DNA of 64,000 bases, from positions 150,406,875-150,470,874 of the forward strand of contig CP136062.1 of NCBI GenBank assembly GCA_032622095.1. The letters are read 5' to 3'. This stretch comes from Siphonodentalium dalli. Its lineage: Eukaryota; Mollusca; Scaphopoda; Gadilida; Siphonodentaliidae. Numbering within the stretch: position 1 is the stretch's first letter; the number at the start of each line of letters is the position of its first letter. A program made the position numbers and the translations under genes. Below, piece after piece: positions 1 through 63,790 of the stretch. The notes under the pieces are model-generated. The model was not told the origin of the DNA. It did not search any database and was given only the letters and a program-made list of their open reading frames with translations.

Positions 1-24
1 GATTAATAAAATTGCATTTCCCTT
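1..24 (+). repeat. Block B, right-end fragment at window edge
   Basis: The last 24 bases of a B copy (GATTAATAAA to CCCTT), matching the right end of every other B. It shows that the array extends leftwards out of the window. Confidence 0.95.
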
Positions 25-45
25 AAGGTGACACTCCACAGTTTC
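25..45. repeat. Left terminal inverted repeat of element A
   Basis: Twenty-one bases beginning AAGGTGACACTCC, the exact reverse complement of 655-675. The 19-base core GGTGACACTCCACAGTTTC is kept perfectly even in the diverged copy A36. Confidence 0.93.
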
Positions 46-191
46 GAATGATCAGTAGGGGTAAATTTCTTAGAATAGAGTACCAGTGTTTTCTGTCACC
101 GTGGGTGTGGTATGTTTATTGAGAGAAGGTTAGTTATGAATTTGTGGATTTTTAGAGGATGTCTTTGAGTTTTGAAAAATATTGTTTCAGG

Positions 192-200
192 TGACCTTGA
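192..200 (-). promoter_or_regulatory. ERR/NR5A-type nuclear-receptor motif in element A
   Basis: TGACCTTGA here reads TCAAGGTCA on the minus strand, the consensus for monomeric receptors of the ERR and NR5A (SF-1/FTZ-F1) groups. With flanking bases it is GGGTCAAGGTCA, two half-sites in direct repeat with no spacer. The same motif recurs in the A copies of the array and in diverged A36 (63236-63244). Sequence match only; no evidence of binding. Confidence 0.45.
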
Positions 201-654
201 CCCCACCAGTATGAAGTAGTAGCGATTTCTGCGAAACAGTGGCTCCAGACACCAGCGTGACTTTTTAGCACCTAAAATTTGTCATCTGCATGAAAAATAT
301 TTTTTTTAAACTTACAGTGGTGAGAAGTTTGAAATTTTTTGATATTATTGTGAGGAAACAGTGTTCTTCCAGACAACATAGGCGGCTATACCATAGATTT
401 TCTGGTTTTTGTGTCCCACGGGCCTGAAAATCGCTTATTTTGGCCATTTTTGCATCAAAATTTCATTTTTCAGGCACACAATCCAGGGGCATAACTCTTG
501 CTACCCCCATTAAAATGACAATTCTGTACCAAAATCTTTAAGCCTAGTATGTGCTCAACCCAGGTATATATACATTGTATATGTGTTGTGGGATAACATT
601 TCAGTTATTTTTCATTGAATTGATGCCCCCCTTAGTTTTGCACCAATCCCTGCA

Positions 655-675
655 GAAACTGTGGAGTGTCACCTT
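655..675. repeat. Right terminal inverted repeat of element A
   Basis: Twenty-one bases ending GGAGTGTCACCTT, the exact reverse complement of 25-45. It is followed directly by block B (CAAGACCAG). Confidence 0.93.
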
Positions 676-1187
676 CAAGACCAGCAAATAGCACTATTTT
701 CATCTGTCAACTTGACAAATATTGTTACTGAAAATCATTTTTTAGCAAATCTGTTCAGTTAGAAGGAACATTTTATGGTAGATACACCATTCTTCTATGG
801 AAATTCCAATACAGGTTGTCTTTAGTCATATAAATTGGTGGGCATATGGAGTCTTGGAGCAGTGGGGGGGGGGTGGTGGTTCATGTATATGGTTATTGGT
901 GATTTTTCAGATGATGGGTACTTCTTCGTGACATCATATGCTCCTTGAATCTTAGCTGAAAAGGCTGATATTGTGACATTACACAGTATACAACAAGATT
1001 TTTTTTTTTAGATATTCAGTCTTTCTTATTCACAAGTGTGAAATATAATAATTCAGGTTTCCTTGGTCATATTTCACTTGACAACATATTGTTCATGTGA
1101 TGTCATAACCTTGTAAAGCTTTCCCTTAATGCAAAATAAGACTTGGAATTTTTTAACCCATAGTTTTGGGAGAGTATTAAAGATAGT

Positions 1188-1260
1188 TGTTGTATGAAAT
1201 ATTATGTTTTATTTTGATATCTGAGGAAAATATGCATCTCATAATATATTTTATACAACA
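1188..1260. repeat. AT-rich imperfect hairpin in block B
   Basis: The left arm TGTTGTATGAAATATTATG and the right arm CATAATATATTTTATACAAC (plus A) are near-perfect complements around a loop of about 33 nt. A hairpin or cruciform would form from each B copy. Seen in all full copies. Confidence 0.6.
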
Positions 1261-1322
1261 TTTTAGCATTTCAGACCTTTTTCAAGCCATAGATGATGGT
1301 TGAATATATCCATTTTGTCACT

Positions 1323-1360
1323 ACGTCAAGCATAACGTCATTGGGTTCTGAAAGACCCAA
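1323..1360. other. Paired ACGTCA sites and small stem in block B
   Basis: Two ACGTCA half-sites (CRE/bZIP-like, TGACGT on the other strand) lie 12 bp apart at 1323-1328 and 1335-1340. They are followed at once by a 6-bp stem TTGGGT/ACCCAA with an 8-nt loop (1341-1360). Function unknown. Confidence 0.35.
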
Positions 1361-1518
1361 AAGGGGTGAAATCATGGGGGTGCATGTAAATCCCCACCCA
1401 ATCTTGCTGCCTGTGATTGCAATAACGCATGGGGTGTAATATATCATTTTAAGCGGTATAATGCAGAGAATATGGAGGTGTGGTCCCTATTAAAGATTAA
1501 TAAAATTGCATTTCCCTT

Positions 1519-2362
1519 CAAGACCAGCAAATAGCACTATTTTCATCTGTCAACTTGACAAATATTGTTACTGAAAATCATTTTTTAGCAAATCTGTTCA
1601 GTTAGAAGGAACATTTTATGGTAGATACACCATTCTTCTATGGAAATTCCAATACAGGTTGTCTTTAGTCATATAAATTGGTGGGCATATGGAGTCTTGG
1701 AGCAGTGGGGGGGGGGGTGGTGGTTCATGTATATGGTTATTGGTGATTTTTCAGATGATGGGTACTTCTTCGTGACATCATATGCTCCTTGAATCTTAGC
1801 TGAAAAGGCTGATATTGTGACATTACACAGTATACAACAAGATTTTTTTTTTTAGATATTCAGTCTTTCTTATTCACAAGTGTGAAATATAATAATTCAG
1901 GTTTCCTTGGTCATATTTCACTTGACAACATATTGTTCATGTGATGTCATAACCTTGTAAAGCTTTCCCTTAATGCAAAATAAGACTTGGAATTTTTTAA
2001 CCCATAGTTTTGGGAGAGTATTAAAGATAGTTGTTGTATGAAATATTATGTTTTATTTTGATATCTGAGGAAAATATGCATCTCATAATATATTTTATAC
2101 AACATTTTAGCATTTCAGACCTTTTTCAAGCCATAGATGATGGTTGAATATATCCATTTTGTCACTACGTCAAGCATAACGTCATTGGGTTCTGAAAGAC
2201 CCAAAAGGGGTGAAATCATGGGGGTGCATGTAAATCCCCACCCAATCTTGCTGCCTGTGATTGCAATAACGCATGGGGTGTAATATATCATTTTAAGCAG
2301 TATAATGCAGAGAATATGGAGGTGTGGTCCCTATTAAAGATTAATAAAATTGCATTTCCCTT
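1519..2362 (+). repeat. Block B copy 2 (no A before it)
   Basis: G11, T11. Private change AAGCAGTATAA where others have AAGCGGTATAA. The B1-B2 junction reads CCCTTCAAG, the form without A. Confidence 0.95.
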
Positions 2363-3012
2363 AAGGTGACACTCCACAGTTTCGAATGATCAGTAGGGGT
2401 AAATTTCTTAGAATAGAGTACCAGTGTTTTCTGTCACCGTGGGTGTGGTATGTTTATTGAGAGAAGGTTAGTTATGAATTTGTGGATTTTTAGAGGATGT
2501 CTTTGAGTTTTGAAAAATATTGTTCAGGTGACCTTGACCCCACCAGTATGAAGTAGTAGCGATTTCTGCGAAACAGTGGCTCCAGACACCAGCGTGACTT
2601 TTTAGCACCTAAAATTTGTCATCTGCATGAAAAATATTTTTTTTAAACTTACAGTGGTGAGAAGTTTGAAATTTTTTGATATTATTGTGAGGAAACAGTG
2701 TTCTTCCAGACAACATAGGCGGCTATACCATAGATTTTCTGGTTTTTGTGTCCCACGGGCCTGAAAATCGCTTATTTTGGCCATTTTTGCATCAAAATTT
2801 CATTTTTCAGGCACACAATCCAGGGGCATAACTCTTGCTACCCCCATTAAAATGACAATTCTGTACCAAAATCTTTAAGCCTAGTATGTGCTCAACCCAG
2901 GTATATATACATTGTATATGTGTTGTGGGATAACATTTCAGTTATTTTTCATTGAATTGATGCCCCCCTTAGTTTTGCACCAATCCCTGCAGAAACTGTG
3001 GAGTGTCACCTT
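2363..3012 (+). mobile_element. Element A copy 2
   Basis: 650 bp: one T is lost just before the nuclear-receptor motif (TGTTCAGG for TGTTTCAGG). Confidence 0.93.
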
Positions 3013-3856
3013 CAAGACCAGCAAATAGCACTATTTTCATCTGTCAACTTGACAAATATTGTTACTGAAAATCATTTTTTAGCAAATCTGTTCAGTTAGA
3101 AGGAACATTTTATGGTAGATACACCATTCTTCTATGGAAATTCCAATACAGGTTGTCTTTAGTCATATAAATTGGTGGGCATATGGAGTCTTGGAGCAGT
3201 GGGGGGGTGGTGGTTCATGTATATGGTTATTGGTGATTTTTCAGATGATGGGTACTTCTTCGTGACATCATATGCTCCTTGAATCTTAGCTGAAAAGGCT
3301 GATATTGTGACATTACACAGTATACAACAAGAATTTTTTTTTTAGATATTCAGTCTTTCTTATTCACAAGTGTGAAATATAATAATTCAGGTTTCCTTGG
3401 TCATATTTCACTTGACAACATATTGTTCATGTGATGTCATAACCTTGTAAAGCTTTCCCTTAATGCAAAATAAGACTTGGAATTTTTTAACCCATAGTTT
3501 TGGGAGAGTATTAAAGATAGTTGTTGTATGAAATATTATGTTTTATATTGATATCTGAGGAAAATATGCATCTCATAATATATTTTATACAACATTTTAG
3601 CATTTCAGACCTTTTTCAAGCCATAGATGATGGTTGAATATATCCATTTTGTCACTACGTCAAGCATAACGTCATTGGGTTCTGAAAGACCCAAAAGGGG
3701 TGAAATCATGGGGGTGCATGTAAATCCCCACCCAATCTTGCTGCCTGTGATTGCAATAACGCATGGGGTGTAATATATCATTTTAAGCGGTATAATGCAG
3801 AGAATATGGAGGTGTGGTCCCTATTAAAGATTAATAAAATTGCATTTCCCTTAATT
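3013..3856 (+). repeat. Block B copy 3, ends TTAATT
   Basis: G7; T tract GAA then T10. Private TTTATATTGAT. The right end carries an extra TTAA, so the join to A3 reads CCCTTAATTAAGG. Confidence 0.94.
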
Positions 3857-4507
3857 AAGGTGACACTCCACAGTTTCGAATGATCAGTAGGGGTAAATTT
3901 CTTAGAATAGAGTACCAGTGTTTTCTGTCACCGTGGGTGTGGTATGTTTATTGAGAGAAGGTTAGTTATGAATTTGTGGATTTTTAGAGGATGTCTTTGA
4001 GTTTTGAAAAATATTGTTTCAGGTGACCTTGACCCCACCAGTATGAAGTAGTAGCGATTTCTGCGAAACAGTGGCTCCAGACACCAGCGTGACTTTTTAG
4101 CACCTAAAATTTGTCATCTGCATGAAAAATATTTTTTTTAAACTTACAGTGGTGAGAAGTTTGAAATTTTTTGATATTATTGTGAGGAAACAGTGTTCTT
4201 CCAGACAACATAGGCGGCTATACCATAGATTTTCTGGTTTTTGTGTCCCACGGGCCTGAAAATCGCTTATTTTGGCCATTTTTGCATCAAAATTTCATTT
4301 TTCAGGCACACAATCCAGGGGCATAACTCTTGCTACCCCCATTAAAATGACAATTCTGTACCAAAATCTTTAAGCCTAGTATGTGCTCAACCCAGGTATA
4401 TATACATTGTATATGTGTTGTGGGATAACATTTCAGTTATTTTTCATTGAATTGATGCCCCCCTTAGTTTTGCACCAATCCCTGCAGAAACTGTGGAGTG
4501 TCACCTT
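3857..4507 (+). mobile_element. Element A copy 3 (TTAATTAA left junction)
   Basis: 651 bp, interior like the consensus; one of six copies with a doubled TTAA at the left end. Confidence 0.93.
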
Positions 4508-5350
4508 CAAGACCAGCAAATAGCACTATTTTCATCTGTCAACTTGACAAATATTGTTATTGAAAATCATTTTTTAGCAAATCTGTTCAGTTAGAAGGAA
4601 CATTTTATGGTAGATACACCATTCTTCTATGGAAATTCCAATACAGGTTGTCTTTAGTCATATAAATTGGTGGGCATATGGAGTCTTGGAGCAGTGGGGG
4701 GGGGTGGTGGTTCATGTATATGGTTATTGGTGATTTTTCAGATGATGGGTACTTCTTCGTGACATCATATGCTCCTTGAATCTTAGCTGAAAAGGCTGAT
4801 ATTGTGACATTACACAGTATACAACAAGATTTTTTTTTTTTAGATATTCAGTCTTTCTTATTCACAAGTGTGAAATATAACAATTCAGGTTTCCTTGGTC
4901 ATATTTCACTTGACAACATATTGTTCATGTGATGTCATAACCTTGTAAAGCTTTCCCTTAATGCAAAATAAGACTTGGAATTTTTTAACCCATAGTTTTG
5001 GGAGAGTATTAAAGATAGTTGTTGTATGAAATATTATGTTTTATTTTGATATCTGAGGAAAATATGCATCTCATAATATATTTTATACAACATTTTAGCA
5101 TTTCAGACCTTTTTCAAGCGATAGATGATGGTTGAATATATCCATTTTGTCACTACGTCAAGCATAACGTCATTGGGTTCTGAAAGACCCAAAAGGGGTG
5201 AAATCATGGGGGTGCATGTAAATCCCCACCCAATCTTGCTGCCTGTGATTGCAATAACGCATGGGGTGTAATATATCATTTTAAGCGGTATAATGCAGAG
5301 AATTTGGAGGTGTGGTCCCTATTAAAGATTAATAAAATTGCATTTCCCTT
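4508..5350 (+). repeat. Block B copy 4
   Basis: G9, T12. Four private changes: ATTGTTATTG, ATAACAATTC, CAAGCGATAG and GAGAATTTGG. Followed directly by another B. Confidence 0.94.
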
Positions 5351-6192
5351 CAAGACCAGCAAATAGCACTATTTTTATCTGTCAACTTGACAAATATTGT
5401 TACTGAAAATCATTTTTTAGCAAATCTGTTCAGTTAGAAGGAACATTTTATGGTAGATACACCATTCTTCTATGGAAATTCCAATACAGGTTGTCTTTAG
5501 TCATATAAATTGGTGGGCATATGGAGTCTTGGAGCAGTGGGGGGGGTGGTGGTTCATGTATATGGTTATTGGTGATTTTTCAGATGATGGGTACTTCTTC
5601 GTGACATCATATGCTCCTTGAATCTTAGCTGAAAAGGCTGATATTGTGACATTACACAGTATACAACAAGATTTTTTTTTTTTAGATATTCAGTCTTTCT
5701 TATTCACAAGTGTGAAATATAATAATTCAGGTTTCCTTGGTCATATTTCACTTGACAACATATTGTTCATGTGATGTCATAACCTTGTAAAGCTTTCCCT
5801 TAATGCAAAATAAGACTTGGAATTTTTTAACCCATAGTTTTGGGAGAGTATTAAAGATAGTTGTTGTATGAAATATTATGTTTTATTTTGATATCTGAGG
5901 AAAATATGCATCTCATAATATATTTTATACAACATTTTAGCATTTCAGACCTTTTTCAAGCCATAGATGATGGTTGAATATATCCATTTTGTCACTACGT
6001 CAAGCATAACGTCATTGGGTTCTGAAAGACCCAAAAGGGGTGAAATCATGGGGGTGCATGTAAATCCCCACCCAATCTTGCTGCCTGTGATTGCAATAAC
6101 GCATGGGGTGTAATATATTATTTTAAGCGGTATAATGCAGAGAATATGGAGGTGTGGTCCCTATTAAAGATTAATAAAATTGCATTTCCCTT
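5351..6192 (+). repeat. Block B copy 5 (no A before it)
   Basis: G8, T12. Private TTTTTATCTG near the left end. Carries the common variant ATATATTATTTT (others ATATATCATTTT). Confidence 0.94.
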
Positions 6193-6843
6193 AAGGTGAC
6201 ACTCCACAGTTTCGAATGATCAGTAGGGGTAAATTTCTTAGAATAGAGTACCAGTGTTTTCTGTCACCGTGGGTGTGGAATGTTTATTGAGAGAAGGTTA
6301 GTTATGAATTTGTGGATTTTTAGAGGATGTCTTTGAGTTTTGAAAAATATTGTTTCAGGTGACCTTGACCCCACCAGTATGAAGTAGTAGCGATTTCTGC
6401 GAAACAGTGGCTCCAGACACCAGCGTGACTTTTTAGCACCTAAAATTTGTCATCTGCATGAAAAATATTTTTTTTAAACTTACAGTGGTGAGAAGTTTGA
6501 AATTTTTTGATATTATTGTGAGGAAACAGTGTTCTTCCAGACAACATAGGCGGCTATACCATAGATTTTCTGGTTTTTGTGTCCCACGGGCCTGAAAATC
6601 GCTTATTTTGGCCATTTTTGCATCAAAATTTAATTTTTCAGGCACACAATCCAGGGGCATAACTCTTGCTACCCCCATTAAAATGACAATTCTGTACCAA
6701 AATCTTTAAGCCTAGTATGTGCTCAACCCAGGTATATATACATTGTATATGTGTTGTGGGATAACATTTCAGTTATTTTTCATTGAATTGATGCCCCCCT
6801 TAGTTTTGCACCAATCCCTGCAGAAACTGTGGAGTGTCACCTT
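6193..6843 (+). mobile_element. Element A copy 4
   Basis: Private changes GTGTGGAATG and AATTTAATTTTTC. The second removes a stop and lengthens the antisense frame to 81 codons in this copy only, which argues against that frame being constrained. Confidence 0.93.
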
Positions 6844-7684
6844 CAAGACCAGCAAATAGCACTATTTTCATCTGTCAACTTGACAAATATTGTTACTGAA
6901 AATCATTTTTTAGCAAATCTGTTCAGTTAGAAGGAACATTTTATGGTAGATACACCATTCTTCTATGGAAATTCCAATACAGGTTGTCTTTAGTCATATA
7001 AATTGGTGGGCATATGGAGTCTTGGAGCAGTGGGGGGGGTGGTGGTTCATGTATATGGTTATTGGTGATTTTTCAGATGATGGGTACTTCTTCGTGACAT
7101 CATATGCTTCTTGAATCTTAGCTGAAAAGGCTGATATTGTGACATTACACAGTATACAACAAGATTTTTTTTTTTAGATATTCAGTCTTTCTTATTCACA
7201 AGTGTGAAATATAATAATTCAGGTTTCCTTGGTCATATTTCACTTGACAACATATTGTTCATGTGATGTCATAACCTTGTAAAGCTTTCCCTTAATGCAA
7301 AATAAGACTTGGAATTTTTTAACCCATAGTTTTGGGAGAGTATTAAAGATAGTTGTTGTATGAAATATTATGTTTTATTTTGATATCTGAGGAAAATATG
7401 CATCTCATAATATATTTTATACAACATTTTAGCATTTCAGACCTTTTTCAAGCCATAGATGATGGTTGAATATATCCATTTTGTCACTACGTCAAGCATA
7501 ACGTCATTGGGTTCTGAAAGACCCAAAAGGGGTGAAATCATGGGGGTGCATGTAAATCCCCACCCAATCTTGCTGCCTGTGATTGCAATAACGCATGGGG
7601 TGTAATATATCATTTTAAGCGTTATAATGCAGAGAATATGGAGGTGTGGTCCCTATTAAAGATTAATAAAATTGCATTTCCCTT
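6844..7684 (+). repeat. Block B copy 6
   Basis: G8, T11. Private ATGCTTCTTG and AAGCGTTATAA. Confidence 0.94.
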
Positions 7685-8335
7685 AAGGTGACACTCCACA
7701 GTTTCGAATGATCAGTAGGGGTAAATTTCTTAGAATAGAGTACCAGTGTTTTCTGTCACCGTGGGTGTGGTATGTTTATTGAGAGAAGGTTAGTTATGAA
7801 TTTGAGGATTTTTAGAGGATGTCTTTGAGTTTTGAAAAATATTGTTTCAGGTGACCTTGACCCCACCAGTATGAAGTAGTAGCGATTTCTGCGAAACAGT
7901 GGCTCCAGACACCAGCGTGACTTTTTAGCACCTAAAATTTGTCATCTGCATGAAAAATATTTTTTTTAAACTTACAGTGGTGAGAAGTTTGAAATTTTTT
8001 GATATTATTGTGAGGAAACAGTGTTCTTCCAGACAACATAGGCGGCTATACCATAGATTTTCTGGTTTTTGTGTCCCACGGGCCTGAAAATCGCTTATTT
8101 TGGCCATTTTTGCATCAAAATTTCATTTTTCAGGCACACAATCCAGGGGCATAACTCTTGCTACCCCCATTAAAATGACAATTCTGTACCAAAATCTTTA
8201 AGCCTAGTATGTGCTCAACCCAGGTATATATACATTGTATATGTGTTGTGGGATAACATTTTAGTTATTTTTCATTGAATTGATGCCCCCCTTAGTTTTG
8301 CACCAATCCCTGCAGAAACTGTGGAGTGTCACCTT
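7685..8335 (+). mobile_element. Element A copy 5
   Basis: Private AATTTGAGGATT and ACATTTTAGTT; otherwise consensus. Confidence 0.93.
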
Positions 8336-9178
8336 CAAGACCAGCAAATAGCACTATTTTCATCTGTCAACTTGACAAATATTGTTACTGAAAATCATTT
8401 TTTAGCAAATCTGTTCAGTTAGAAGGAACATTTTATGGTAGATACACCATTCTTCTATGGAAATTCCAATACAGGTTGTCTTTAGTCATATAAATTGGTG
8501 GGCATATGGAGTCTTGGAGCAGTGGGGGGGGGTGGTGGTTCATGTATATGGTTATTGGTGATTTTTCAGATGATGGGTACTTCTTCGTGACATCATATGC
8601 TCCTTGAATCTTAGCTGAAAAGGCTGATATTGTGACATTACACAGTATACAACAAGATTTTTTTTTTTTAGATATTCAGTCTTTCTTATTCACAAGTGTG
8701 AAATATAATAATTCAGGTTTCCTTGGTCATATTTCACTTGACAACATATTGTTCATGTGATGTCATAACCTTGTAAAGCTTTCCCTTAATGCAAAATAAG
8801 ACTTGGAATTTTTTAACCCATAGTTTTGGGAGAGTATTAAAGATAGTTGTTGTATGAAATATTATGTTTTATTTTGATATCTGAGGAAAATATGCATCTC
8901 ATAATATATTTTATACAACATTTTAGCATTTCAGACCTTTTTCAAGCCATAGATGATGGTTGAATATATCCATTTTGTCACTACGTCAAGCATAACGTCA
9001 TTGGGTTCTGAAAGACCCAAAAGGGGTGAAATCATGGGGGTGCATGTAAATCCCCACCCAATCTTGCTGCCTGTGATTGCAATAACGCATGGGGTGTAAT
9101 ATATTATTTTAAGCGGTATAATGCAGAGAATATGGAGGTGTGGTCCCTATTAAAGATTAATAAAACTGCATTTCCCTT
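8336..9178 (+). repeat. Block B copy 7
   Basis: G9, T12; ATATATTATTTT variant; private AAAACTGCATT at the right end. Confidence 0.94.
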
Positions 9179-16647: not shown

Positions 16648-17490
16648 CAAGACCAGCAAATAGCACTATTTTCATCTGTCAACTTGACAAATATTGTTAC
16701 TGAAAATCATTTTTTAGCAAATCTGTTCAGTTAGAAGGAACATTTTATGGTAGATACACCATTCTTCTATGGAAATTCCAATACAGGTTGTCTTTAGTCA
16801 TATAAATTGGTGGGCATATGGAGTCTTGGAGCAGTGGGGGGGGGTGGTGGTTCATGTATATGGTTATTGGTGATTTTTCAGATGATGGGTACTTCTTCGT
16901 GACATCATATGCTCCTTGAATCTTAGCTGAAAAGGCTGATATTGTGACATTACACAGTATACAACAAGATTTTTTTTTTAGATATTCAGTCTTTCTTATT
17001 CACAAGTGTGAAATATAATAATTCAGGTTTCCTTGGTCATATTTCACTTGACAACATATTGTTCATGTGATGTCATAACCTTGTAAAGCTTTCCCTTAAT
17101 GCAAAATAAGACTTGGAATTTTTTAACCCATAGTTTTGGGAGAGTATTAAAGATAGTTGTTGTATGAAATATTATGTTTTATTTTGATATCTGAGGAAAA
17201 TATGCATCTCATAATATATTTTATACAACATTTTAGCATTTCAGACCTTTTTCAAGCCATAGATGATGGTTGAATATATCCATTTTGTCACTACGTCAAG
17301 CATAACGTCATTGGGTTCTGAAAGACCCAAAAGGGGTGAAATCATGGGGGTGCATGTAAATCCCCACCCAATCTTGCTGCCTGTGATTGCAATAACGCAT
17401 GGGGTGTAATATATCATTTTAAGCGGTATAATGCAGAGAATATGGAGGTGTGGTCCCTATTAAAGATTAATAAAATTGCATTTCCCTTTT
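16648..17490 (+). repeat. Block B copy 13, ends TTTT
   Basis: G9, T10. The B13-B14 junction is CCCTTTTCAAG, with two extra T compared with every other B-B junction. This is the form expected if an A copy had been lost leaving both flanking TT. Confidence 0.94.
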
Positions 17491-18333
17491 CAAGACCAGC
17501 AAATAGCACTATTTTCATCTGTCAACTTGACAAATATTGTTACTGAAAATCATTTTTTAGCAAATCTGTTCAGTTAGAAGGAACATTTTATGGTAGATAC
17601 ACCATTCTTCTATGGAAATTCCAATACAGGTTGTCTTTAGTCATATAAATTGGTGGGCATATGGAGTCTTGGAGCAGTGGGGGGGGGGTGGTGGTTCATG
17701 TATATGGTTATTGGTGATTTTTCAGATGATGGGTACTTCTTCGTGACATCATATGCTCCTTGAATCTTAGCTGAAAAGGCTGATATTGTGACATTACACA
17801 GTATACAACAAGATTTTTTTTTTCAGATATTCAGTCTTTCTTATTCACAAGTGTGAAATATAATAATTCAGGTTTCCTTGGTCATATTTCACTTGACAAC
17901 ATATTGTTCATGTGATGTCATAACCTTGTAAAGCTTTCCCTTAATGCAAAATAAGACTTGGAATTTTTTAACCCATAGTTTTGGGAGAGTATTAAAGATA
18001 GTTGTTGTATGAAATATTATGTTTTATTTTGATATCTGAGGAAAATATGCATCTCATAATATATTTTATACAACATTTTAGCATTTCAGACCTTTTTCAA
18101 GCCATAGATGATGGTTGAATATATCCATTTTGTCACTACGTCAAGCATAACGTCATTGGGTTCTGAAAGACCCAAAAGGGGTGAAATCATGGGGGTGCAT
18201 GTAAATCCCCACCCAATCTTGCTGCCTGTGATTGGAATAACGCATGGGGTGTAATATATCATTTTAAGCGGTATAATGCAGAGAATATGGAGGTGTGGTC
18301 CCTATTAAAGATTAATAAAATTGCATTTCCCTT
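17491..18333 (+). repeat. Block B copy 14 (no A before it)
   Basis: G10; T10 followed by CAG rather than AG (shared with B21 and B23). Private-type change GATTGGAATAA, also in B30. Confidence 0.94.
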
Positions 18334-19174
18334 CAAGACCAGCAAATAGCACTATTTTCATCTGTCAACTTGACAAATATTGTTACTGTAAATCATTTTT
18401 TAGCAAATCTGTTCAGTTAGAAGGAACATTTTATGGTAGATACACCATTCTTCTATGGAAATTCCAATACAGGTTGTCTTTAGTCATATAAATTGGTGGG
18501 CATATGGAGTCTTGGAGCAGTGGGGGGGGTGGTGGTTCATGTATATGGTTATTGGTGATTTTTCAGATGATGGGTACTTCTTCGTGACATCATATGCTCC
18601 TTGAATCTTAGCTGAAAAGGCTGATATTGTGACATTACACAGTATACAACAAGATTTTTTTTTTTAGATATTCAGTCTTTCTTATTCACAAGTGTGAAAT
18701 ATAATAATTCAGGTTTCCTTGGTCATATTTCACTTGACAACATATTGTTCATGTGATGTCATAACCTTGTAAAGCTTTCCCTTAATGCAAAATAAGACTT
18801 GGAATTTTTTAACCCATAGTTTTGGGAGAGTATTAAAGATAGTTGTTGTATGAAATATTATGTTTTATTTTGATATCTGAGGAAAATATGCATCTCATAA
18901 TATATTTTATACAACATTTTAGCATTTCAGACCTTTTTCAAGCCATAGATGATGGTTGAATATATCCATTTTGTCACTACGTCAAGCATAACGTCATTGG
19001 GTTCTGAAAGACCCAAAAGGGGTGAAATCATGGGGGTGCATGTAAATCCCCACCCAATCTTGCTGCCTGTGATTGCAATAACGCATGGGGTGTAATATAT
19101 TATTTTAAGCGGTATAATGCAGAGAATATGGAGGTGTGGTCCCTATTAAAGATTAATAAAATTGCATTTCCCTT
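18334..19174 (+). repeat. Block B copy 15 (no A before it)
   Basis: G8, T11; private TACTGTAAATC; ATATATTATTTT variant. Confidence 0.94.
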
Positions 19175-19790
19175 CAAGACCAGCAAATAGCACTATTTTC
19201 ATCTGTCAACTTGACAAATATTGTTACTGAAAATCATTTTTTAGCAAATCTGTTCAGTTAGAAGGAACATTTTATGGTAGATACACCATTCTTCTATGGA
19301 AATTCCAATACAGGTTGTCTTTAGTCATATAAATTGGTGGGCATATGGAGTCTTGGAGCAGTGGGGGGGGGGGGGTGGTGGTTCATGTATATGGTTATTG
19401 GTGATTTTTCAGATGATGGGTACTTCTTCGTGACATCATATGCTCCTTGAATCTTAGCTGAAAAGGCTGATATTGTGACATTACACAGTATACAACAAGA
19501 TTATTTTTTTTAGGTATTCAGTCTTTCTTATTCACAAGTGTGAAATATAATAATTCAGGTTTCCTTGGTCATATTTCACTTGACAACATATTGTTCATGT
19601 GATGTCATAACCTTGTAAAGCTTTCCCTTAATGCAAAATAAGACTTGGAATTTTTTAACCCATAGTTTTGGGAGAGTATTAAAGATAGTTGTTGTATGAA
19701 ATATTATGATTTATTTTGATATCTGAGGAAAATATGCATCTCATAATATATTTTATACAACATTTTAGCATTTCAGACCTTTTTCAAGCC
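19175..19790 (+). repeat. Block B copy 16, truncated at its right end
   Basis: 616 bp. The last 230 bp of B (equivalent to 1289-1518 in B1) are missing, and CTTTTTCAAGCC joins straight to the first base of A11. G13; the T tract is interrupted (GATTAT). Private TAGGTATTC and TTATGATTTA. Confidence 0.95.
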
Positions 19791-20441
19791 AAGGTGACAC
19801 TCCACAGTTTCGAATGATCAGTAGGTGTAAATTTCTTAGAATAGAGTACCAGTGTTTTCTGTCACCGTGGGTGTGGTATGTTTATTGAGAGAAGGTTAGT
19901 TATGAATTTGTGGATTTTTAGAGGATGTCTTTGAGTTTTGAAAAATATTGTTTCAGGTGACCTTGACCCCACCAGTATGAAGTAGTAGCGATTTCTGCGA
20001 AACAGTGGCTCCAGACACCAGCGTGACTTTTTAGCACCTAAAATTTGTCATCTGCATGAAAAATATTTTTTTTAAACTTACAGTGGTGAGAAGTTTGAAA
20101 TTTTTTGATATTATTGTGAGGAAACAGTGTTCTTCCAGACAACATAGGCGGCTATACCATAGATTTTCTGGTTTTTGTGTCCCACGGGCCTGAAAATCGC
20201 TTATTTTGGCCATTTTTGCATCAAAATTTCATTTTTCAGGCACACAATCCAGGGGCATAACTCTTGCTACCCCCATTAAAATGACAATTCTGTACCAAAA
20301 TCTTTAAGCCTAGTATGTGCTCAACCCAGGTATATATACATTGTATATGTGTTGTAGGATAACATTTCAGTTATTTTTCATTGAATTGATGCCCCCCTTA
20401 GTTTTGCACCAATCCCTGCAGAAACTGTGGAGTGTCACCTT
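19791..20441 (+). mobile_element. Element A copy 11 at an atypical junction
   Basis: A full 651-bp element with an intact left end, but its left neighbour is mid-B sequence rather than GCATTTCCCTT. Private GTAGGTGTAAA and GTTGTAGGAT. Confidence 0.94.
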
Positions 20442-54106: not shown

Positions 54107-54757
54107 AAGGTGACACTCCACAGTTTCGAATGATCAGTAGGGGTAAATTTCTTAGAATAGAGTACCAGTGTTTTCTGTCACCGTGGGTGTGGTATGTTTA
54201 TTGAGAGAAGGTTAGTTATGAATTTGTGGATTTTTAGAGGATGTCTTTGAGTTTTGAAAAATATTGTTTCAGGTGACCTTGACCCCACCAGTATGAAGTA
54301 GTAGCGATTTCTGCGAAACAGTGGCTCCAGACACCAGCGTGACTTTTTAGCACCTAAAATTTGTCATCTGCATGAAAAATATTTTTTTTAAACTTACAGT
54401 GGTGAGAAGTTTGAAATTTTTTGATATTATTGTGAGGAAACAGTGTTCTTCCAGACAACATAGGCGGCTATACCATAGATTTTCTGGTTTTTGTGTCCCA
54501 CGGGCCTGAAAATCGCTTATTTTGGCCATTTTTGCATCAAAATTTCATTTTTCAGGCACACAATCCAGGGGCATAACTCTTGCTACCCCCATTAAAATGA
54601 CAATTCTGTACCAAAATCTTTAAGCCTAGTATGTGCTCAACCCAGGTATATATACATTGTATATGTGTTGTGGGATAACATTTCAGTTATTTTTCATTGA
54701 ATTGATGCCCCCCTTAGTTTTGCACCAATCCCTGCAGAAACTGTGGAGTGTCACCTT
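54107..54757 (+). mobile_element. Element A copy 30 (TTAATTAA left junction)
   Basis: 651 bp; interior like the consensus, without the CCAATCTCTGC change of A28 and A29. Confidence 0.93.
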
Positions 54758-55601
54758 CAAGACCAGCAAATAGCACTATTTTCATCTGTCAACTTGACAA
54801 ATATTGTTACTGAAAATCATTTTTTAGCAAATCTGTTCAGTTAGAAGGAACATTTTATGGTAGATACACCATTCTTCTATGGAAATTCCAATACAGGTTG
54901 TCTTTAGTCATATAAATTGGTGTGCATATGGATGGAGTCTTGGAGCAGTGGGGGGGGTGGTGGTTCATGTATATGGTTATTGGTGATTTTTCAGATGATG
55001 GGTACTTCTTCGTGACATCATATGCTCCTTGAATCTTAGCTGAAAAGGCTGATATTGTGACATTACACAGTATACAACAAGATTTTTTTTTTAGATATTC
55101 AGTCTTTCTTATTCACAAGTGTGAAATATAATAATTCAGGTTTCCTTGGTCATATTTCACTTGACAACATATTGTTCATGTGATGTCATAACCTTGTAAA
55201 GCTTTCCCTTAATGCAAAATAAGACTTGGAATTTTTTAACCCATAGTTTTGGGAGAGTATTAAAGATAGTTGTTGTATGAAATATTATGTTTTATTTTGA
55301 TATCTGAGGAAAATATGCATCTCATAATATATTTTATACAACATTTTAGCATTTCAGACCTTTTTCAAGCCATAGATGATGGTTGAATATATCCATTTTG
55401 TCACTACGTCAAGCATAACGTCATTGGGTTCTGAAAGACCCAAAAGGGGTGAAATCATGGGGGTGCATGTAAATCCCCACCCAATCTTGCTGCCTGTGAT
55501 TGCAATAACGCATGGGGTGTAATATATCATTTTAAGCGGTATAATGCAGAGAATATGGAGGTGTGGTCCCTATTAAAGATTAATAAAATTGCATTTCCCT
55601 T
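54758..55601 (+). repeat. Block B copy 43
   Basis: G8, T10; private GGTGTGCATATGG followed by a 4-bp duplication (ATGGATGGAG). Confidence 0.94.
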
Positions 55602-56252
55602 AAGGTGACACTCCACAGTTTCGAATGATCAGTAGGGGTAAATTTCTTAGAATAGAGTACCAGTGTTTTCTGTCACCGTGGGTGTGGTATGTTTATTGAG
55701 AGAAGGTTAGTTATGAATTTGTGGATTTTTAGAGGATGTCTTTGAGTTTTGAAAAATATTGTTTCAGGTGACCTTGACCCCACCAGTATGAAGTAGTAGC
55801 GATTTCTGCGAAATAGTGGCTCCAGACACCAGCGTGACTTTTTAGCACCTAAAATTTGTCATCTGCATGAAAAATATTTTTTTTAAACTTACAGTGGTGA
55901 GAAGTTTGAATTTTTTTGATATTATTGTGAGGAAACAGTGTTCTTCCAGACAACATAGGCGGCTATACCATAGATTTTCTGGTTTTTGTGTCCCACGGGC
56001 CTGAAAATCGCTTATTTTGGCCATTTTTGCATCAAAATTTCATTTTTCAGGCACACAATCCAGGGGCATAACTCTTGCTACCCCCATTAAAATGACAATT
56101 CTGTACCAAAATCTTTAAGCCTAGTATGTGCTCAACCCAGGTATATATACATTGTATATGTGTTGTGGGATAACATTTCAGTTATTTTTCATTGAATTGA
56201 TGCCCCCCTTAGTTTTGCACCAATCCCTGCAGAAACTGTGGAGTGTCACCTT
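55602..56252 (+). mobile_element. Element A copy 31
   Basis: GCGAAATAGTGG and GTTTGAATTTTTTTG, both shared only with A35, 6.8 kb away. Confidence 0.93.
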
Positions 56253-57096
56253 CAAGACCAGCAAATAGCACTATTTTCATCTGTCAACTTGACAAATATT
56301 GTTACTGAAAATCATTTTTTAGCAAATCTGTTCAGTTAGAAGGAACATTTTATGGTAGATACACCATTCTTCTATGGAAATTCCAATACAGGTTGTCTTT
56401 AGTCATATAAATTGGTGGGCATATGGAGTCTTGGAGCAGTGGGGGGGGGGGTGGTGGTTCATGTATATGGTTATTGGTGATTTTTCAGATGATGGGTACT
56501 TCTTCGTGACATCATATGCTCCTTGAATCTTAGCTGAAAAGGCTGATATTGTGACATTACACAGTATACAACAAGATTTTTTTTTTTAGATATTCAGTCT
56601 TTCTTATTCACAAGTGTGAAATATAATAATTCAGGTTTCCTTGGTCATATTTCACTTGACAACATATTGTTCATGTGATGTCATAACCTTGTAAAGCTTT
56701 CCCTTAATGCAAAATAAGACTTGGAATTTTTTAACCCATAGTTTTGGGAGAGTATTAAAGATAGTTGTTGTATGAAATATTATGTTTTATTTTGATATCT
56801 GAGGAAAATATGCATCTCATAATATATTTTATACAACATTTTAGCATTTCAGACCTTTTTCAAGCCATAGATGATGGTTGAATATATCCATTTTGTCACT
56901 ACGTCAAGCATAACGTCATTGGGTTCTGAAAGACCCAAAAGGGGTGAAATCATGGGGGTGCATGTAAATCCCCACCCAATCTTGCTACCTGTGATTGCAA
57001 TAACGCATGGGGTGTAATATATCATTTTAAGCGGTATAATGCAGAGAATATGGAGGTGTGGTCCCTATTAAAGATTAATAAAATTGCATTTCCCTT
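56253..57096 (+). repeat. Block B copy 44
   Basis: G11, T11; TTGCTACCTG shared only with B46. Confidence 0.94.
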
Positions 57097-57747
57097 AAGG
57101 TGACACTCCACAGTTTCGAATGATCAGTAGGGGTAAATTTCTTAGAATAGAGTACCAGTGTTTTCTGTCACCGTGGGTGTGGTATGTTTATTGAGAGAAG
57201 GTTAGTTATGAATTTGTGGATTTTTAGAGGATGTCTTTGAGTTTTGAAAAATATTGTTTCAGGTGACCTTGACCCCACCAGTATGAAGTAGTAGCGATTT
57301 CTGCGAAACAGTGGCTCCAGACACCAGCGTGACTTTTTAGCACCTAAAATTTGTCATCTGCATGAAAAATATTTTTTTTAAACTTACAGTGGTGAGAAGT
57401 TTGAAATTTTTTGATATTATTGTGAGGAAACAGTGTTCTTCCAGACAACATAGGCGGCTATACCATAGATTTTCTGGTTTTTGTGTCCCACGGGCCTGAA
57501 AATCGCTTATTTTGGCCATTTTTGCATCAAAATTTCATTTTTCAGGCACACAATCCAGGGGCATAACTCTTGCTACCCCCATTAAAATGACAATTCTGTA
57601 CCAAAATCTTTAAGCCTAGTATGTGCTCAACCCAGGTATATATACATTGTATATGTGTTGTGGGATAACATTTCAGTTATTTTTCATTGAATTGATGCCC
57701 CCCTTAGTTTTGCACCAATCCCTGCAGAAACTGTGGAGTGTCACCTT
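57097..57747 (+). mobile_element. Element A copy 32
   Basis: 651 bp; no difference from the consensus noticed. Confidence 0.93.
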
Positions 57748-58593
57748 CAAGATCAGCAAATAGCACTATTTTCATCTGTCAACTTGACAAATATTGTTAC
57801 TGAAAATCATTTTTTAGCAAATCTGTTCAGTTAGAATGAACATTTTATGGTAGATACACCATTCTTCTATGGAAATTCCAATACAGGTTGTCTTTAGTCA
57901 TATAAATTGGTGGGCATATGGAGTCTTGGAGCAGTGGGGGGGGGGGGGTGGTGGTTCATGTATATGGTTATTGGTGATTTTTCAGATGATGGGTACTTCT
58001 TCGTGACATCATATGCTCCTTGAATCTTAGCTGAAAAGGCTGATATTGTGACATTACACAGTATACAACAAGATTATTTTTTTTAGATATTCAGTCTTTC
58101 TTATTCACAAGTGTGAAATATAATAATTCAGGTTTCCTTGGTCATATTTCACTTGACAACATATTGTTCATGTGATGTCATAACCTTGTAAAGCTTTCCC
58201 TTAATGCAAAATAAGACTTGGAATTTTTTAACCCATAGTTTTGGGAGAGTATTAAAGATAGTTGTTGTATGAAATATTATGTTTTATTTTGATATCTGAG
58301 GAAAATATGCATCTCATAATATATTTTATACAACATTTTAGCATTTCAGACCTTTTTCAAGCCATAGATGATGGTTGAATATATCCATTTTGTCACTACG
58401 TCAAGCATAACGTCATTGGGTTCTGAAAGACCCAAAAGGGGTGAAATCATGGGGGTGCATGTAAATCCCCACCCAATCTTGCTGCCTGTGATTGCAATAA
58501 CGCATGGGGTGTAATATATCATTTTAAGCGGTATAATGCAGAGAATATGGAGGTGTGGTCCCTATTAAAGATTAATAAAATTGCATTTCCCTT
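57748..58593 (+). repeat. Block B copy 45
   Basis: G13; GATTA then T8; private CAAGATCAGC; TTAGAATGAAC as in B40 and B42. Confidence 0.94.
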
Positions 58594-59435
58594 CAAGACC
58601 AGCAAATAGCACTATTTTCATCTGTCAACTTGACAAATATTGTTACTGAAAATCATTTTTTAGCAAATCTGTTCAGTTAGAAGGAACATTTTATGGTAGA
58701 TACACCATTCTTCTATGGAAATTCCAATACAGGTTGTCTTTAGTCATATAAATTGGTGGGCATATGGAGTCTTGGAGCAGTGGGGGGGGGTGGTGGTTCA
58801 TGTATATGGTTATTGGTGATTTTTCAGATGATGGGTACTTCTTCGTGACATCATATGCTCCTTGAATCTTAGCTGAAAAGGCTGATATTGTGACATTACA
58901 CAGTATACAACAAGATTTTTTTTTTTAGATATTCAGTCTTTCTTATTCACAAGTGTGAAATATAATAATTCAGGTTTCCTTGGTCATATTTCACTTGACA
59001 ACATATTGTTCATGTGATGTCATAACCTTGTAAAGCTTTCCCTTAATGCAAAATAAGACTTGGAATTTTTTAACCCATAGTTTTGGGAGAGTATTAAAGA
59101 TAGTTGTTGTATGAAATATTATGTTTTATTTTGATATCTGAGGAAAATATGCATCTCATAATATATTTTATACAACATTTTAGCATTTCAGACCTTTTTC
59201 AAGCCATAGATGATGGTTGAATATATCCATTTTGTCACTACGTCAAGCATAACGTCATTGGGTTCTGAAAGACCCAAAAGGGGTGAAATCATGGGGGTGC
59301 ATGTAAATCCCCACCCAATCTTGCTACCTGTGATTGCAATAACGCATGGGGTGTAATATATCATTTTAAGCGGTATAATGCAGAGAATATGGAGGTGTGG
59401 TCCCTATTAAAGATTAATAAAATTGCATTTCCCTT
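58594..59435 (+). repeat. Block B copy 46 (no A before it)
   Basis: G9, T11; TTGCTACCTG as in B44. Confidence 0.94.
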
Positions 59436-60086
59436 AAGGTGACACTCCACAGTTTCGAATGATCAGTAGGGGTAAATTTCTTAGAATAGAGTACCAGTGT
59501 TTTCTGTCACCGTGGGTGTGGTATGTTTATTGAGAGAAGGTTAGTTATGAATTTGTGGATTTTTAGAGGATGTCTTTGAGTTTTGAAAAATATTGTTTCA
59601 GGTGACCTTGACCCCACCAGTATGAAGTAGTAGCGATTTCTGCGAAACAGTGGCTCCAGACACCAGCGTGACTTTTTAGCACCTAAAATTTGTCATCTGC
59701 ATGAAAAATATTTTTTTTAAACTTACAGTGGTGAGAAGTTTGAAATTTTTTGATATTATTGTGAGGAAACAGTGTTCTTCCAGACAACATAGGCGGCTAT
59801 ACCATAGATTTTCTGGTTTTTGTGTCCCACGGGCCTGAAAATCGCTTATTTTGGCCATTTTTGCATCAAAATTTCATTTTTCAGGCACACAATCCAGGGG
59901 CATAACTCTTGCTACCCCCATTAAAATGACAATTCTGTACCAAAATCTTTAAGCCTAGTATGTGCTCAACCCAGGTATATATACATTGTATATGTGTTGT
60001 GGGATAACATTTCAGTTATTTTTCATTGAATTGATGCCCCCCTTAGTTTTGCACCAATCCCTGCAGAAACTGTGGAGTGTCACCTT
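59436..60086 (+). mobile_element. Element A copy 33
   Basis: 651 bp; no difference from the consensus noticed. Confidence 0.93.
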
Positions 60087-60925
60087 CAAGACCAGCAAAT
60101 AGCACTATTTTCATCTGTCAACTTGACAAATATTGTTACTGAAAATCATTTTTTAGCAAATCTGTTCAGTTAGAATGTACATTTTATGGTAGATACACCA
60201 TTCTTCTATGGAAATTCCAATACAGGTTGTCTTTAGTCATATAAATTGGTGGGCATATGGAGTCTTGGAGCAGTGGGGGGGTGGTGGTTCATGTATATGG
60301 TTATTGGTGATTTTTCAGATGATGGGTACTTCTTCGTGACATCATATGCTCCTTGAATCTTAGCTGAAAAGGCTGATATTGTGACATTACACAGTATACA
60401 ACAAGATTTTTTTTTTAGATATTCAGTCTTTCTTATTCACAAGTGTGAAATATAATAATTCAGGTTTCCTTGGTCATATTTCACTTGACAACATATTGTT
60501 CATGTGATGTCATAACCTTGTAAAGCTTTCCCTTAATGCAAAATAAGACTTGGAATTTTTTAACCCATAGTTTTGGGAGAGTATTAAAGATAGTTGTTGT
60601 ATGAAATATTATGTTTTATTTTGATATCTGAGGAAAATATGCATCTCATAATATATTTTATACAACATTTTAGCATTTCAGACCTTTTTCAAGCCATAGA
60701 TGATGGTTGAATATATCCATTTTGTCACTACGTCAAGCATAACGTCATTGGGTTCTGAAAGACCCAAAAGGGGTGAAATCATGGGGGTGCATGTAAATCC
60801 CCACCCAATCTTGCTGCCTGTGATTGCAATAACGCATGGGGTGTAATATATCATTTTAAGCGGTATAATGCAGAGAATATGGAGGTGTGGTCCCTATTAA
60901 AGATTAATAAAATTGCATTTCCCTT
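60087..60925 (+). repeat. Block B copy 47
   Basis: G7, T10; TTAGAATGTAC, one step beyond the TTAGAATGAAC variant of B40, B42 and B45. Confidence 0.94.
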
Positions 60926-61576
60926 AAGGTGACACTCCACAGTTTCGAATGATCAGTAGGGGTAAATTTCTTAGAATAGAGTACCAGTGTTTTCTGTCAC
61001 CGTGGGTGTGGTATGTTTATTGAGAGAAGGTTAGTTATGAATTTGTGGATTTTTAGAGGATGTCTTTGAGTTTTGAAAAATATTGTTTCAGGTGACCTTG
61101 ACCCCACCAGTATGAAGTAGTAGCGATTTCTGCGAAACAGTGGCTCCAGACACCAGCGTGACTTTTTAGCACCTAAAATTTGTCATCTGCATGAAAAATA
61201 TTTTTTTTAAACTTACAGTGGTGAGAAGTTTGAAATTTTTTGATATTATTGTGAGGAAACAGTGTTCTTCCAGACAACATAGGCGGCTATACCATAGATT
61301 TTCTGGTTTTTGTGTCCCACGGGCCTGAAAATCGCTTATTTTGGCCATTTTTGCATCAAAATTTCATTTTTCAGGCACACAATCCAGGGGCATAACTCTT
61401 GCTACCCCCATTAAAATGACAATTCTGTACCAAAATCTTTAAGCCTAGTATGTGCTCAACCCAGGTATATATACATTGTATATGTGTTGTGGGATAACAT
61501 TTCAGTTATTTTTCATTGAATTGATGCCCCCCTTAGTTTTGCACCAATCCCTGCAGAAACTGTGGAGTGTCACCTT
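60926..61576 (+). mobile_element. Element A copy 34
   Basis: 651 bp; no difference from the consensus noticed. Confidence 0.93.
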
Positions 61577-62418
61577 CAAGACCAGCAAATAGCACTATTT
61601 TCATCTGTCAACTTGACAAATATTGTTACTGAAAATCATTTTTTAGCAAATCTGTTCAGTTAGAAGGAACATTTTATGGTAGATACACCATTCTTCTATG
61701 GAAATTCCAATACAGGTTGTCTTTAGTCATATAAATTGGTGGGCATATGGAGTCTTGGAGCAGTGGGGGGGGGGTGGTGGTTCATGTATATGGTTATTGG
61801 TGATTTTTCAGATGATGGGTACTTCTTCGTGACATCATATGCTCCTTGAATCTTAGCTGAAAAGGCTGATATTGTGACATTACACAGTATACAACAAGAT
61901 TTTTTTTTTAGATATTCAGTCTTTCTTATTCACAAGTGTGAAATATAATAATTCAGGTTTCCTTGGTCATATTTCACTTGACAACATATTGTTCATGTGA
62001 TGTCATAACCTTGTAAAGCTTTCCCTTAATGCAAAATAAGACTTGGAATTTTTTAACCCATAGTTTTGGGAGAGTATTAAAGATAGTTGTTGTATGAAAT
62101 ATTATGTTTTATTTTGATATCTGAGGAAAATATGCATCTCATAATATATTTTATACAACATTTTAGCATTTCAGACCTTTTTCAAGCCATAGATGATGGT
62201 TGAATATATCCATTTTGTCACTACGTCAAGCATAACGTCATTGGGTTCTGAAAGACCCAAAAGGGGTGAAATCATGGGGGTGCATGTAAATCCCCACCCA
62301 ATCTTGCTGCCTGTGATTGCAATAACGCATGGGGTGTAATATATCATTTTAAGCGGTATAATGCAGAGAATATGGAGGTGTGGTCCCTATTAAAGATTAA
62401 TAAAATTGCATTTCCCTT
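61577..62418 (+). repeat. Block B copy 48 (last B)
   Basis: G10, T10. No B sequence was found to the right of this copy. Confidence 0.94.
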
Positions 62419-63067
62419 AAGGTGACACTCCACAGTTTCGAATGATCAGTAGGGGTAAATTTCTTAGAATAGAGTACCAGTGTTTTCTGTCACCGTGGGT
62501 GTGGTATGTTTATTGAGAGAAGGTTAGTTATGAATTTGTGGATTTTTAGAGGATGTCTTTGAGTTTTGAAAAATATTGTTTCAGGTGACCTTGACCCCAC
62601 CAGTATGAAGTAGTAGCGATTTCTGCGAAATAGTGGCTCCAGACACCAGCGTGACTTTTTAGCACCTAAAATTTGTCATCTGCATGAAAAATATTTTTTT
62701 TAAACTTACAGTGGTGAGAAGTTTGAATTTTTTTGATATTATTGTGAGGAAACAGTGTTCTTCCAGACAACATAGGCGGCTATACCATAGATTTTCTGGT
62801 TTTTGTGTCCCACGGGCCTGAAAATCGCTTATATTGGCCATTTTTGCATCAAAATTTCATTTTTCAGGCACACAATCCAGGGGCATAACTCTTGCTACCC
62901 CCATTAAAATGACAATTCTGTACCAAAATCTTTAAGCCTAGTATGTGCTCAACCCAGGTATATATACATTGTATATGTGTTGTGGGATAACATTTCAGTT
63001 ATTTTTCATTGAATTGATGCCCCCCTTAGTTTTGCACCAATCCCTGCAGAAACTGTGGAGTGTCACC
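62419..63067 (+). mobile_element. Element A copy 35, last in the array
   Basis: Ends at GTGTCACC; the usual TTCAAG is replaced by AGA and a second element. Shares GCGAAATAGTGG and GTTTGAATTTTTTTG with A31; private CTTATATTGGCC. Confidence 0.94.
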
Positions 63068-63089
63068 AGAGGTGACACTCCACAGTTTC
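63049..63089. repeat. Perfect 41-bp hairpin at the array edge
   Basis: The right inverted repeat of A35 (63049-63067) and the left inverted repeat of A36 (63071-63089) are exact complements over 19 bp, separated only by AGA. This is the only place in the window where two A ends abut. Confidence 0.95.
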
Positions 63090-63718: not shown

Positions 63719-63721
63719 AGA

Positions 63722-63790
63722 ACCAGTCCTTGTGAGTCTTGGAAATGTTTGTATATAAAATTTGGTTGAGAATTTTTTTAAAGAAAAAAA
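63722..63790. other. Unique spacer between element A36 and the kinase stop codon
   Basis: About 69 AT-rich bases with no repeat from the array. It is presumably the 3' untranslated region of the minus-strand kinase gene. No AATAAA or ATTAAA is seen on the minus strand here, so the transcript may run on into A36 for its polyadenylation site. Confidence 0.5.

Follow-up and report, generated by a model that had tools for sequence, protein, structure and literature searches.

How a short element with perfect inverted ends comes to alternate with a second unit over tens of kilobases, being present at some junctions and missing at others, is the question raised by a 64,000-nucleotide stretch of the genome of the scaphopod Siphonodentalium dalli (2.23 Gb, 9 contigs). 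This stretch, hereafter the window, corresponds to C2:150406875-150470874 (contig CP136062.1). The initial annotation, made from its sequence, described two repeats, A and B, and read A as a transposon nested in a second monomer, B. We find that the array is very probably a single insertion of a non-autonomous DNA transposon of the KolobokP type that has grown in place. The ends of A are indeed those of a transposon, but A and B represent the long terminal direct repeat (LTDR) and the internal region (INT) of one and the same element. The layout first described, with all its coordinates, was reproduced: within positions 1-63067, A is present 35 times and B 48 times, not counting the final 26 bases of one B at the window start, and B is directly preceded by A in 34 cases and by another B in 14, with filled and empty forms coexisting. 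No B follows the last A, which is succeeded by AGA and then by a diverged relative, A'. The whole array (C2:150380687-150469941) spans 89,255 bp, of which 26,188 bp lie upstream of the window, and consists of 52 A (51 full length) and 66 B (64 full length) with 15 B-B junctions. A stands at both array ends, and AGA flanks both sides.

A proper (GGTGACACTCC...GGAGTGTCACC) measures 647 bp in 33 of 35 copies, the other two having 646 and 654 bp; the 651 bp originally assigned to it comprise A plus a 4-bp TTAA, while the perfect inversion of its ends, which covers 19 bp, was borne out. Its termini are GG...CC. B is about 843 bp long, apart from one copy (19173-19792) of only 620 bp that lacks the 3' end. 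Copies in the window share on average 99.7% pairwise identity in A and 99.6% in B, which excludes chance. The nucleotide diversity of the 35 A copies is 0.0027 and that of 47 B copies 0.0031, the shortened B at 19173 as well as homopolymer and junction columns being left out. A' shows 73% identity to A and is identical to it in the 19-bp ends and the first 36 bp. Tandem Repeats Finder, for which 500 is the longest detectable period, returned no rows, and an Rfam scan gave no matches. The length (89 kb) and homogeneity (about 99.7% identity in the window part) are those of a satellite, but a terminal inverted repeat (TIR) and an AGA duplication bound the array, the surroundings of which are a repeated kinase-gene region. 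In its pattern it is satellite-like, but in its origin and at its ends it is a transposon.

KolobokP elements, of which 228 families have been published, were described by Kojima & Bao (2022, Mob DNA 13:24, PMC9587614), and a literature search for the word KolobokP found no other paper. According to the available text of that article, they have the form LTDR-INT-LTDR, in which LTDRs of ~450 or ~660 bp carry TIRs of their own of up to 18 bp with RR...YY termini. Solo LTDRs, monomers and multimers are surrounded by duplications of 3-4 or 4-5 bp with no strong target specificity, and INT-INT junctions show a loss of 3-4 bp with a one-sided footprint. The coding capacity comprises a DDD/E transposase, from a lineage with a CCHC finger and a C/DxxH motif, and a His-Me nuclease on the opposite strand, which was proposed to induce exchange between repeats. 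In S. dalli, an internal region flanked on each side by a long terminal direct repeat was found in the array, in composites on C2, C3, C4, C5 and C6, and in a coding relative (locus L018). The LTDR has 647 bp, GG...CC termini and a perfect 19-bp TIR; target duplications are 3 bp long in 31 of 31 insertions; and in 14 of the 15 INT-INT junctions a single one of the two 4-bp flanks is retained, two extra bases being present in the fifteenth. Both transposase and opposite-strand nuclease are present in the coding relative, B itself being non-autonomous. Because the LTDR/INT form, TIRs, duplications, solos, multimers and the transposase-nuclease pair all correspond, the window array is read as a non-autonomous KolobokP-type multimer. 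As far as the available text of PMC9587614 goes, the array is like KolobokP in its ~660-bp-class LTDR with own TIRs, 3-bp duplications, solos, multimers and INT-INT junctions, but differs in its TIR of 19 bp instead of up to 18 bp. With 52 LTDRs and 66 INTs it is also larger than the examples spelled out there, which go up to LTDR-(INT)4-LTDR, with no maximum given.

A pattern search for the exact TIR returned 1150 forward and 1176 reverse matches genome-wide, 0 matches for the reversed control, and 0 matches in the viral_contigs and genome_contigs collections. The first 100 places listed were grouped into 40 clusters, 24 of which have exact TIRs at both ends (11 solo-length and 13 longer); outer flanks were read for all 24, the other 16 clusters being outside the sample. 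Two of the 24 were left out: one at 12.58 Mb, which has the flanks of the 11.55-Mb copy inverted and represents the same event, and one at 108.755 Mb, which is flanked by an INT head. The remaining clusters and nine insertions from elsewhere make up 31 insertions, namely 10 solo-length copies and 21 longer elements (of which 11 were read completely and one partly, the other nine being classed from the spacing of their TIRs alone), with the array and A' sharing one AGA. Outer 3-bp duplications match in all 31 (21/21 longer and 10/10 independent solo-length), and in none of them does the match extend to 4 bp. As a control, combining flanks from different loci gave a match in 100 of 930 pairings, and the highest score among 20,000 shuffles was 13/31. 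A-(B)n-A blocks occur on four other chromosomes: ABBBBA on C3, ABA on C4, and blocks with internal A and deletions on C5 and C6. It had been suggested initially that A should be sought outside B, and that A would be just part of a satellite monomer if no dispersed copies with target duplications existed; since dispersed solo A-type copies do carry such duplications, this is not the case. Two solo LTDRs lying 1 Mb from each other on C1 (C1:11549705-11550313 and C1:12583402-12584009) share their flanks, inverted relative to one another, and so may reflect an inverted segmental duplication.

The insertion site itself is preserved in the host. A 282-bp kinase-bearing stretch next to the array has eight further copies, two of which are shortened, in the flanks read, with 98.9-100% identity. 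Seven of these eight preserve the sequence to the left and right of the insertion point (...CGAC-AGA-ACCAG...) and have a single AGA there but neither A nor B, the eighth being different. In AGA[array]AGA[A']AGA the trinucleotide occurs three times, whereas the host paralogues have a single AGA. The joined flanks with one AGA, searched in ~61 kb of C2 flanks, were found at these same 7 places (6 exact, 1 with one mismatch). Empty sites with one duplication copy were detected for 4/4 insertions tested in the kinase cluster, the others being an inverted composite (7 places, all exact), an A'-type element (57 places, all exact) and the coding relative (51 places, in a local 252-bp repeat, of which 1 is exact and the other 50 carry 1-2 mismatches). 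The single-AGA host sites therefore identify the array and A' as insertions at one AGA, their relative order left aside, and target duplications together with an empty site identify the long array as one insertion. This arrangement fits two insertions at one target, comparable to the double transposon insertions sharing a target duplication of McGurk & Barbash (2018), as summarized in the available text of a review (PMC12628747); here, however, the double insertion sets a second family beside the array and is not the source of the repeat unit. The kinase gene cluster (loci L019, L018, L017 and L016, and window positions 63719-64000), in which the 282-bp stretch partly recurs every 2,889 bp, contains several KolobokP-type insertions. 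A host tandem repeat of ~252 bp, present in the C2 flanks (e.g., 150347068-150358079 and 150477024-150479236), has two KolobokP-type elements inserted in it.

These sites bear directly on the possibility that A is a miniature inverted-repeat transposable element (MITE) inserted once in a pre-existing satellite monomer, B, the pair then being amplified among empty monomers. Such a history would account for the TIRs, dispersed copies and target duplications of A, as well as for filled and empty junctions lying side by side, but it agrees poorly with blocks that start and end with A inside outer 3-bp duplications (31/31), with host paralogues of the site that lack both A and B, and with the failure to see any B block without A at its ends among the loci read. 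Moreover, the same A/B junction position recurs with the other LTDR family, A', and the coding relative shares the architecture. We consider this history highly improbable, and it was rejected on the strength of the A-bounded blocks in the loci read, the outer duplications and the empty host paralogues.

The coding relative (L018:1261-7063) is located 17-23 kb upstream of the array and consists of two A-like repeats, at 1261-1907 (647 bp) and 6416-7063 (648 bp), around 4,508 bp. The two repeats show no mismatch in aligned columns, and their outer flanks are TGA/TGA. The interior encodes, on the minus strand, a 534-aa frame matching PF20700, a Mutator-like transposase (E 4e-34), and on the opposite, plus strand a frame matching the zf-His_Me_endon nuclease (E 1e-12). 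This gene pair also bears on a reading of A as a long terminal repeat (LTR) and of the elements as tandem arrays of retrotransposons resembling terminal-repeat retrotransposons in miniature (TRIMs). Direct terminal repeats, solos and tandem multimers are typical of TRIMs as well, as noted in the available text of PMC9587614; nevertheless, 19-bp TIRs at both ends of each repeat, termini of GG...CC rather than TG...CA, and a linked relative with a transposase and a homing-type nuclease make this reading the most improbable of those considered, and it was rejected on these three features.

With regard to growth, subsampled trees unite the A copies of each locus for C3, C5, C6 and the inverted C2 composite, and likewise their B copies; the copies of the window cluster less firmly (A 85/92, B 80/80). 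Judged by B distance (0.5%) and A distance (1.0%), the ABA element of C4 is nearest to the array. Differences between B units rise with distance along the array, from 7.1 at lag 1 to 9.5 at lags 33-70, and the three longest exact repeats (2,125, 2,029 and 1,784 bp) are 1.5-3.0 kb apart. This pattern fits a history in which a short element inserted and then underwent unequal exchange, for the most part locally. An LTDR-INT-LTDR element close to the C4 ABA copy may have been moved into AGA by a KolobokP transposase acting in trans, and a solo A' would have inserted at the same AGA. Unequal crossover or break-induced repair between direct repeats would then have multiplied the LTDR-INT units and, by the same process, homogenised them, while single LTDRs may at times have been lost with 2-4 adjacent bases, giving INT-INT junctions that presumably spread along with neighbouring units.

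Several observations weigh against an in situ expansion of a KolobokP-type element. Kolobok transposons are characterized by TTAA target sites and 4-bp target duplications; here the duplications are 3 bp long, 0 of 31 outer flanks are 4-bp repeats, and TTAA on both LTDR sides is found only at inner junctions. The Kolobok placement rests on architecture and domain matches rather than on a tree with reference families. The LTDRs of the coding relative are only ~70% identical to A, and its INT shows a clear alignment with B at the tail alone, matching the tail of B (45 bp, score 40, as compared with at most 30 in 20 shuffles and 33 for the opposite strand). The A copies of C4, two in number, are not monophyletic in the subsampled tree, where support for a clade of window A copies is weak. 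Other exact repeats, of 1.3-1.6 kb, are 16-58 kb apart and thus not adjacent. Finally, the array length depends on the assembly, and units that are ~99.7% identical are hard to assemble. That the length is partly an assembly artefact is nonetheless unlikely, as the units carry individual variants, similarity falls with distance, and runs of B-B junctions extend over 18-53 kb at other places.

The usual empty junction reads CCC-TTCA-AG and the usual filled one CCC-TTAA-[A]-TTCA-AG. The 15 empty junctions of the whole array comprise 14 with TTCA and one with TTTTCA, and every one of them can be derived on paper by deleting the LTDR along with 4 or 2 bases, all from its left flank, a one-sided footprint equal to that described for KolobokP in the available text of PMC9587614. 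Filled left junctions are mostly TTAA, with 6 TTAATTAA and few others; the doubled TTAATTAA stands ahead of the LTDR in these 6 array junctions, and TTAACTTAA was seen once in the neighbouring inverted composite. From these junction sequences, the empty B-B junctions are probably scars of LTDR loss. The view that an empty B is a pre-insertion site could not be maintained, because B-B junctions recur (116 exact ones genome-wide) and can be written as loss of A with left-flank bases. Comparison of B copies, a test that had been proposed initially, revealed no separate group beside empty junctions: B after filled and after empty junctions differ by 0.0030 between classes and by 0.0032 and 0.0030 within them, and B ahead of filled and empty junctions by 0.0030 between and 0.0034 and 0.0023 within. 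For B after the junctions, the between-class distance is no greater than that within either class. There is thus no clear clade of empty units, and A, with a diversity like that of B, appears as old in the array as B; the data favour the presence of A before amplification.

Genome-wide, the B-B junction pattern allowed TTCA or TTAA only, and the first 100 of the 116 junctions listed comprise 97 TTCA and 3 TTAA, the latter all on C6; an ATCA variant occurs on C5. Among the matches listed, runs of B-B junctions were found at C3:78416304-78469651 (53 kb), C5:73634725-73662169 (27 kb, with one 16-kb gap) and C5:196514025-196539018 (25 kb), and on C6 as two opposite-strand runs, 128184267-128202438 (~18 kb) and 128220906-128246710 (~26 kb). 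Each run has a spacing pattern of its own, many spacings being sums of A and B lengths, and one end of the C3 run has mostly a 2,335-bp A+2B period. This suggests similar long arrays at C3, C5 and C6. There is an appreciable possibility, short of an even chance, that B-B junctions are ancestral or arose from B-B rearrangement only, with no LTDR excision at all: one junction dominates (97 of the first 100 listed and 14/15 in the array), and homogenisation can spread a single junction. However, crossover between INTs presupposes an existing INT-INT junction, and TTTTCA in the array, TTAA on C6 and ATCA on C5 suggest several origins, although simple mutation could also yield them. As for LTDR loss, recurrent excision and the spread of a few old junctions fit the data alike.

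A further feature of these elements is that their LTDRs and INTs do not share one history. An A'-INT-A'-INT-A' element at C2:150366032-150369645 is flanked by AAT/AAT, and the solo A' next to the array is 97% identical to its LTDRs. In this element and in C1 copies, A' LTDRs are combined with B-type INTs at the same junction, with TTAA-[A']-TTAA in the C2 element. Modules were compared in 14 A and 8 A' LTDRs and in 12 and 5 INTs, respectively, picked by availability. Between the A and A' families, LTDRs differ by 29.1% (112 pairs) and INTs by 7.1% (60 pairs); within the A and A' families, same-locus pairs being left out, LTDRs differ by 3.4% and 3.7% and INTs by 2.6% and 5.1%. The LTDR/INT ratio is thus 4.1 between families (3.3-5.2 by bootstrap over columns) and about 1.3 and 0.7 within them. 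In the INT tree, whose midpoint root serves for drawing only, A-type INTs fall among A'-type INTs. Since co-inheritance at one rate would not yield such discordance, exchange of LTDRs or INTs between the families appears to be the likeliest explanation of these sequences. No element combining an A and an A' LTDR was seen among the elements read. It is conceivable, though rather doubtful, that LTDRs and INTs are exchangeable modules, such that an INT-INT scar of the TTAA type docks an LTDR of the other family and unequal crossover then brings the element to satellite size; an LTDR would in that case re-insert at the INT-INT scar, and a single INT lineage would have switched to LTDRs 29% different with its junction left exactly unchanged. 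Gene conversion through the identical TIRs is an alternative to such re-insertion. The disagreement between LTDR and INT histories is unlike KolobokP as described in the available text of PMC9587614, in the main text of which the words satellite, swap, chimer and exchange are absent. How the composite form returns after LTDR excision is posed there as an open question, and the LTDR/INT mismatch bears on it and makes it testable.

The kind of element is already known, both from KolobokP and from oyster satellites annotated as Kolobok (available text of PMC8268682); what is possibly new is a KolobokP family member with an 89-kb, satellite-scale array and module discordance. The oyster satellites, CgiSat13 and CgiSat16, are 2,414-bp tandem repeats annotated DNA/Kolobok, which places Kolobok-related satellites on record; in contrast to our array, no LTDR/INT structure or bounding duplications are described for them in that text, and the likeness noted is one of annotation. 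Tandem repeats borne by MITEs, such as miDNA4, are carried and spread by TIR elements (available text of PMC12628747), whereas in our array the repeat unit includes the terminal element. One chromosome-level genome shows a composite-like transposon turning satellite-like, with solos, monomers, short multimers and an 89-kb array coexisting, and such arrays may get catalogued as ordinary satellites. In Messor ants, Palomeque in 2006 reportedly found a MITE, a short element with TIRs, together with satellite monomers, located in an independent satellite. A TIR element and monomers occur in both cases, but here both parts belong to one transposon. The features of the window are collected in Table 1.

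Table 1. Features of the window, in window coordinates
Feature	Position	Strand	Remark
Very probable KolobokP-type multimer (LTDR-INT)n-LTDR, window part, non-autonomous	1..63067	+	whole array C2:150380687-150469941
LTDR (A), first of 35 in window, 647 bp, perfect 19-bp TIR	27..673	+	
INT (B), short, TTCA head, called non-autonomous from size and Rfam scan	674..1516	+	
INT abutting preceding INT, junction CCC-TTCA-AG, LTDR absent, one of 14 in window	1517..2364	+	
Left junction, doubled TTAATTAA ahead of LTDR, one of 6 in array	3851..3858	+	
Variant INT-INT junction CCCTTTTCAAG, LTDR absent, keeps 2 bases more than common junction	17484..17494	+	
INT of 620 bp, 3' end deleted, directly joined to LTDR	19173..19792	+	
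Final LTDR of array, outer end is right end of whole insertion	62421..63067	+	
AGA, right target-site duplication of array, common to left side of A'	63068..63070	+	left copy C2:150380684-150380686
A', solo LTDR of second family, 648 bp, AGA/AGA flanks	63071..63718	+	
AGA, right target-site duplication of A'	63719..63721	+	host paralogues: single AGA, no insertion
Protein kinase open reading frame, C-terminal part, host context only	63791..64000	-	Pfam Pkinase, E 7e-07

Other transposase units were found by a PF20700 profile search of the genome, in which 114 of 668 candidates were scored and at least 115 matches obtained, the transposase of the coding relative not being among the matches listed. 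Among these, eight at C2:178172508-178205115 are spaced exactly 4,495 bp apart with 603-aa open frames, and one unit of this set (L097) has a His-Me nuclease frame on the strand opposite the transposase. None of the A, A', A-like, B and coding-INT queries matched this unit, and its transposase is 25% identical to that of the coding relative, CxxH- and C-rich motifs having been spotted by eye only. The set has the appearance of a tandem array that is autonomous, KolobokP-like and of a different family. Regularly spaced transposase matches were also listed at C9:23151209-23164745, C3:99313395-99323517, C6:79177920-79192543 and C6:135958331-135968456, with spacings of about 6.2 or 4.5 kb and one 9.0-kb step, and these sets are possibly autonomous multimers as well.

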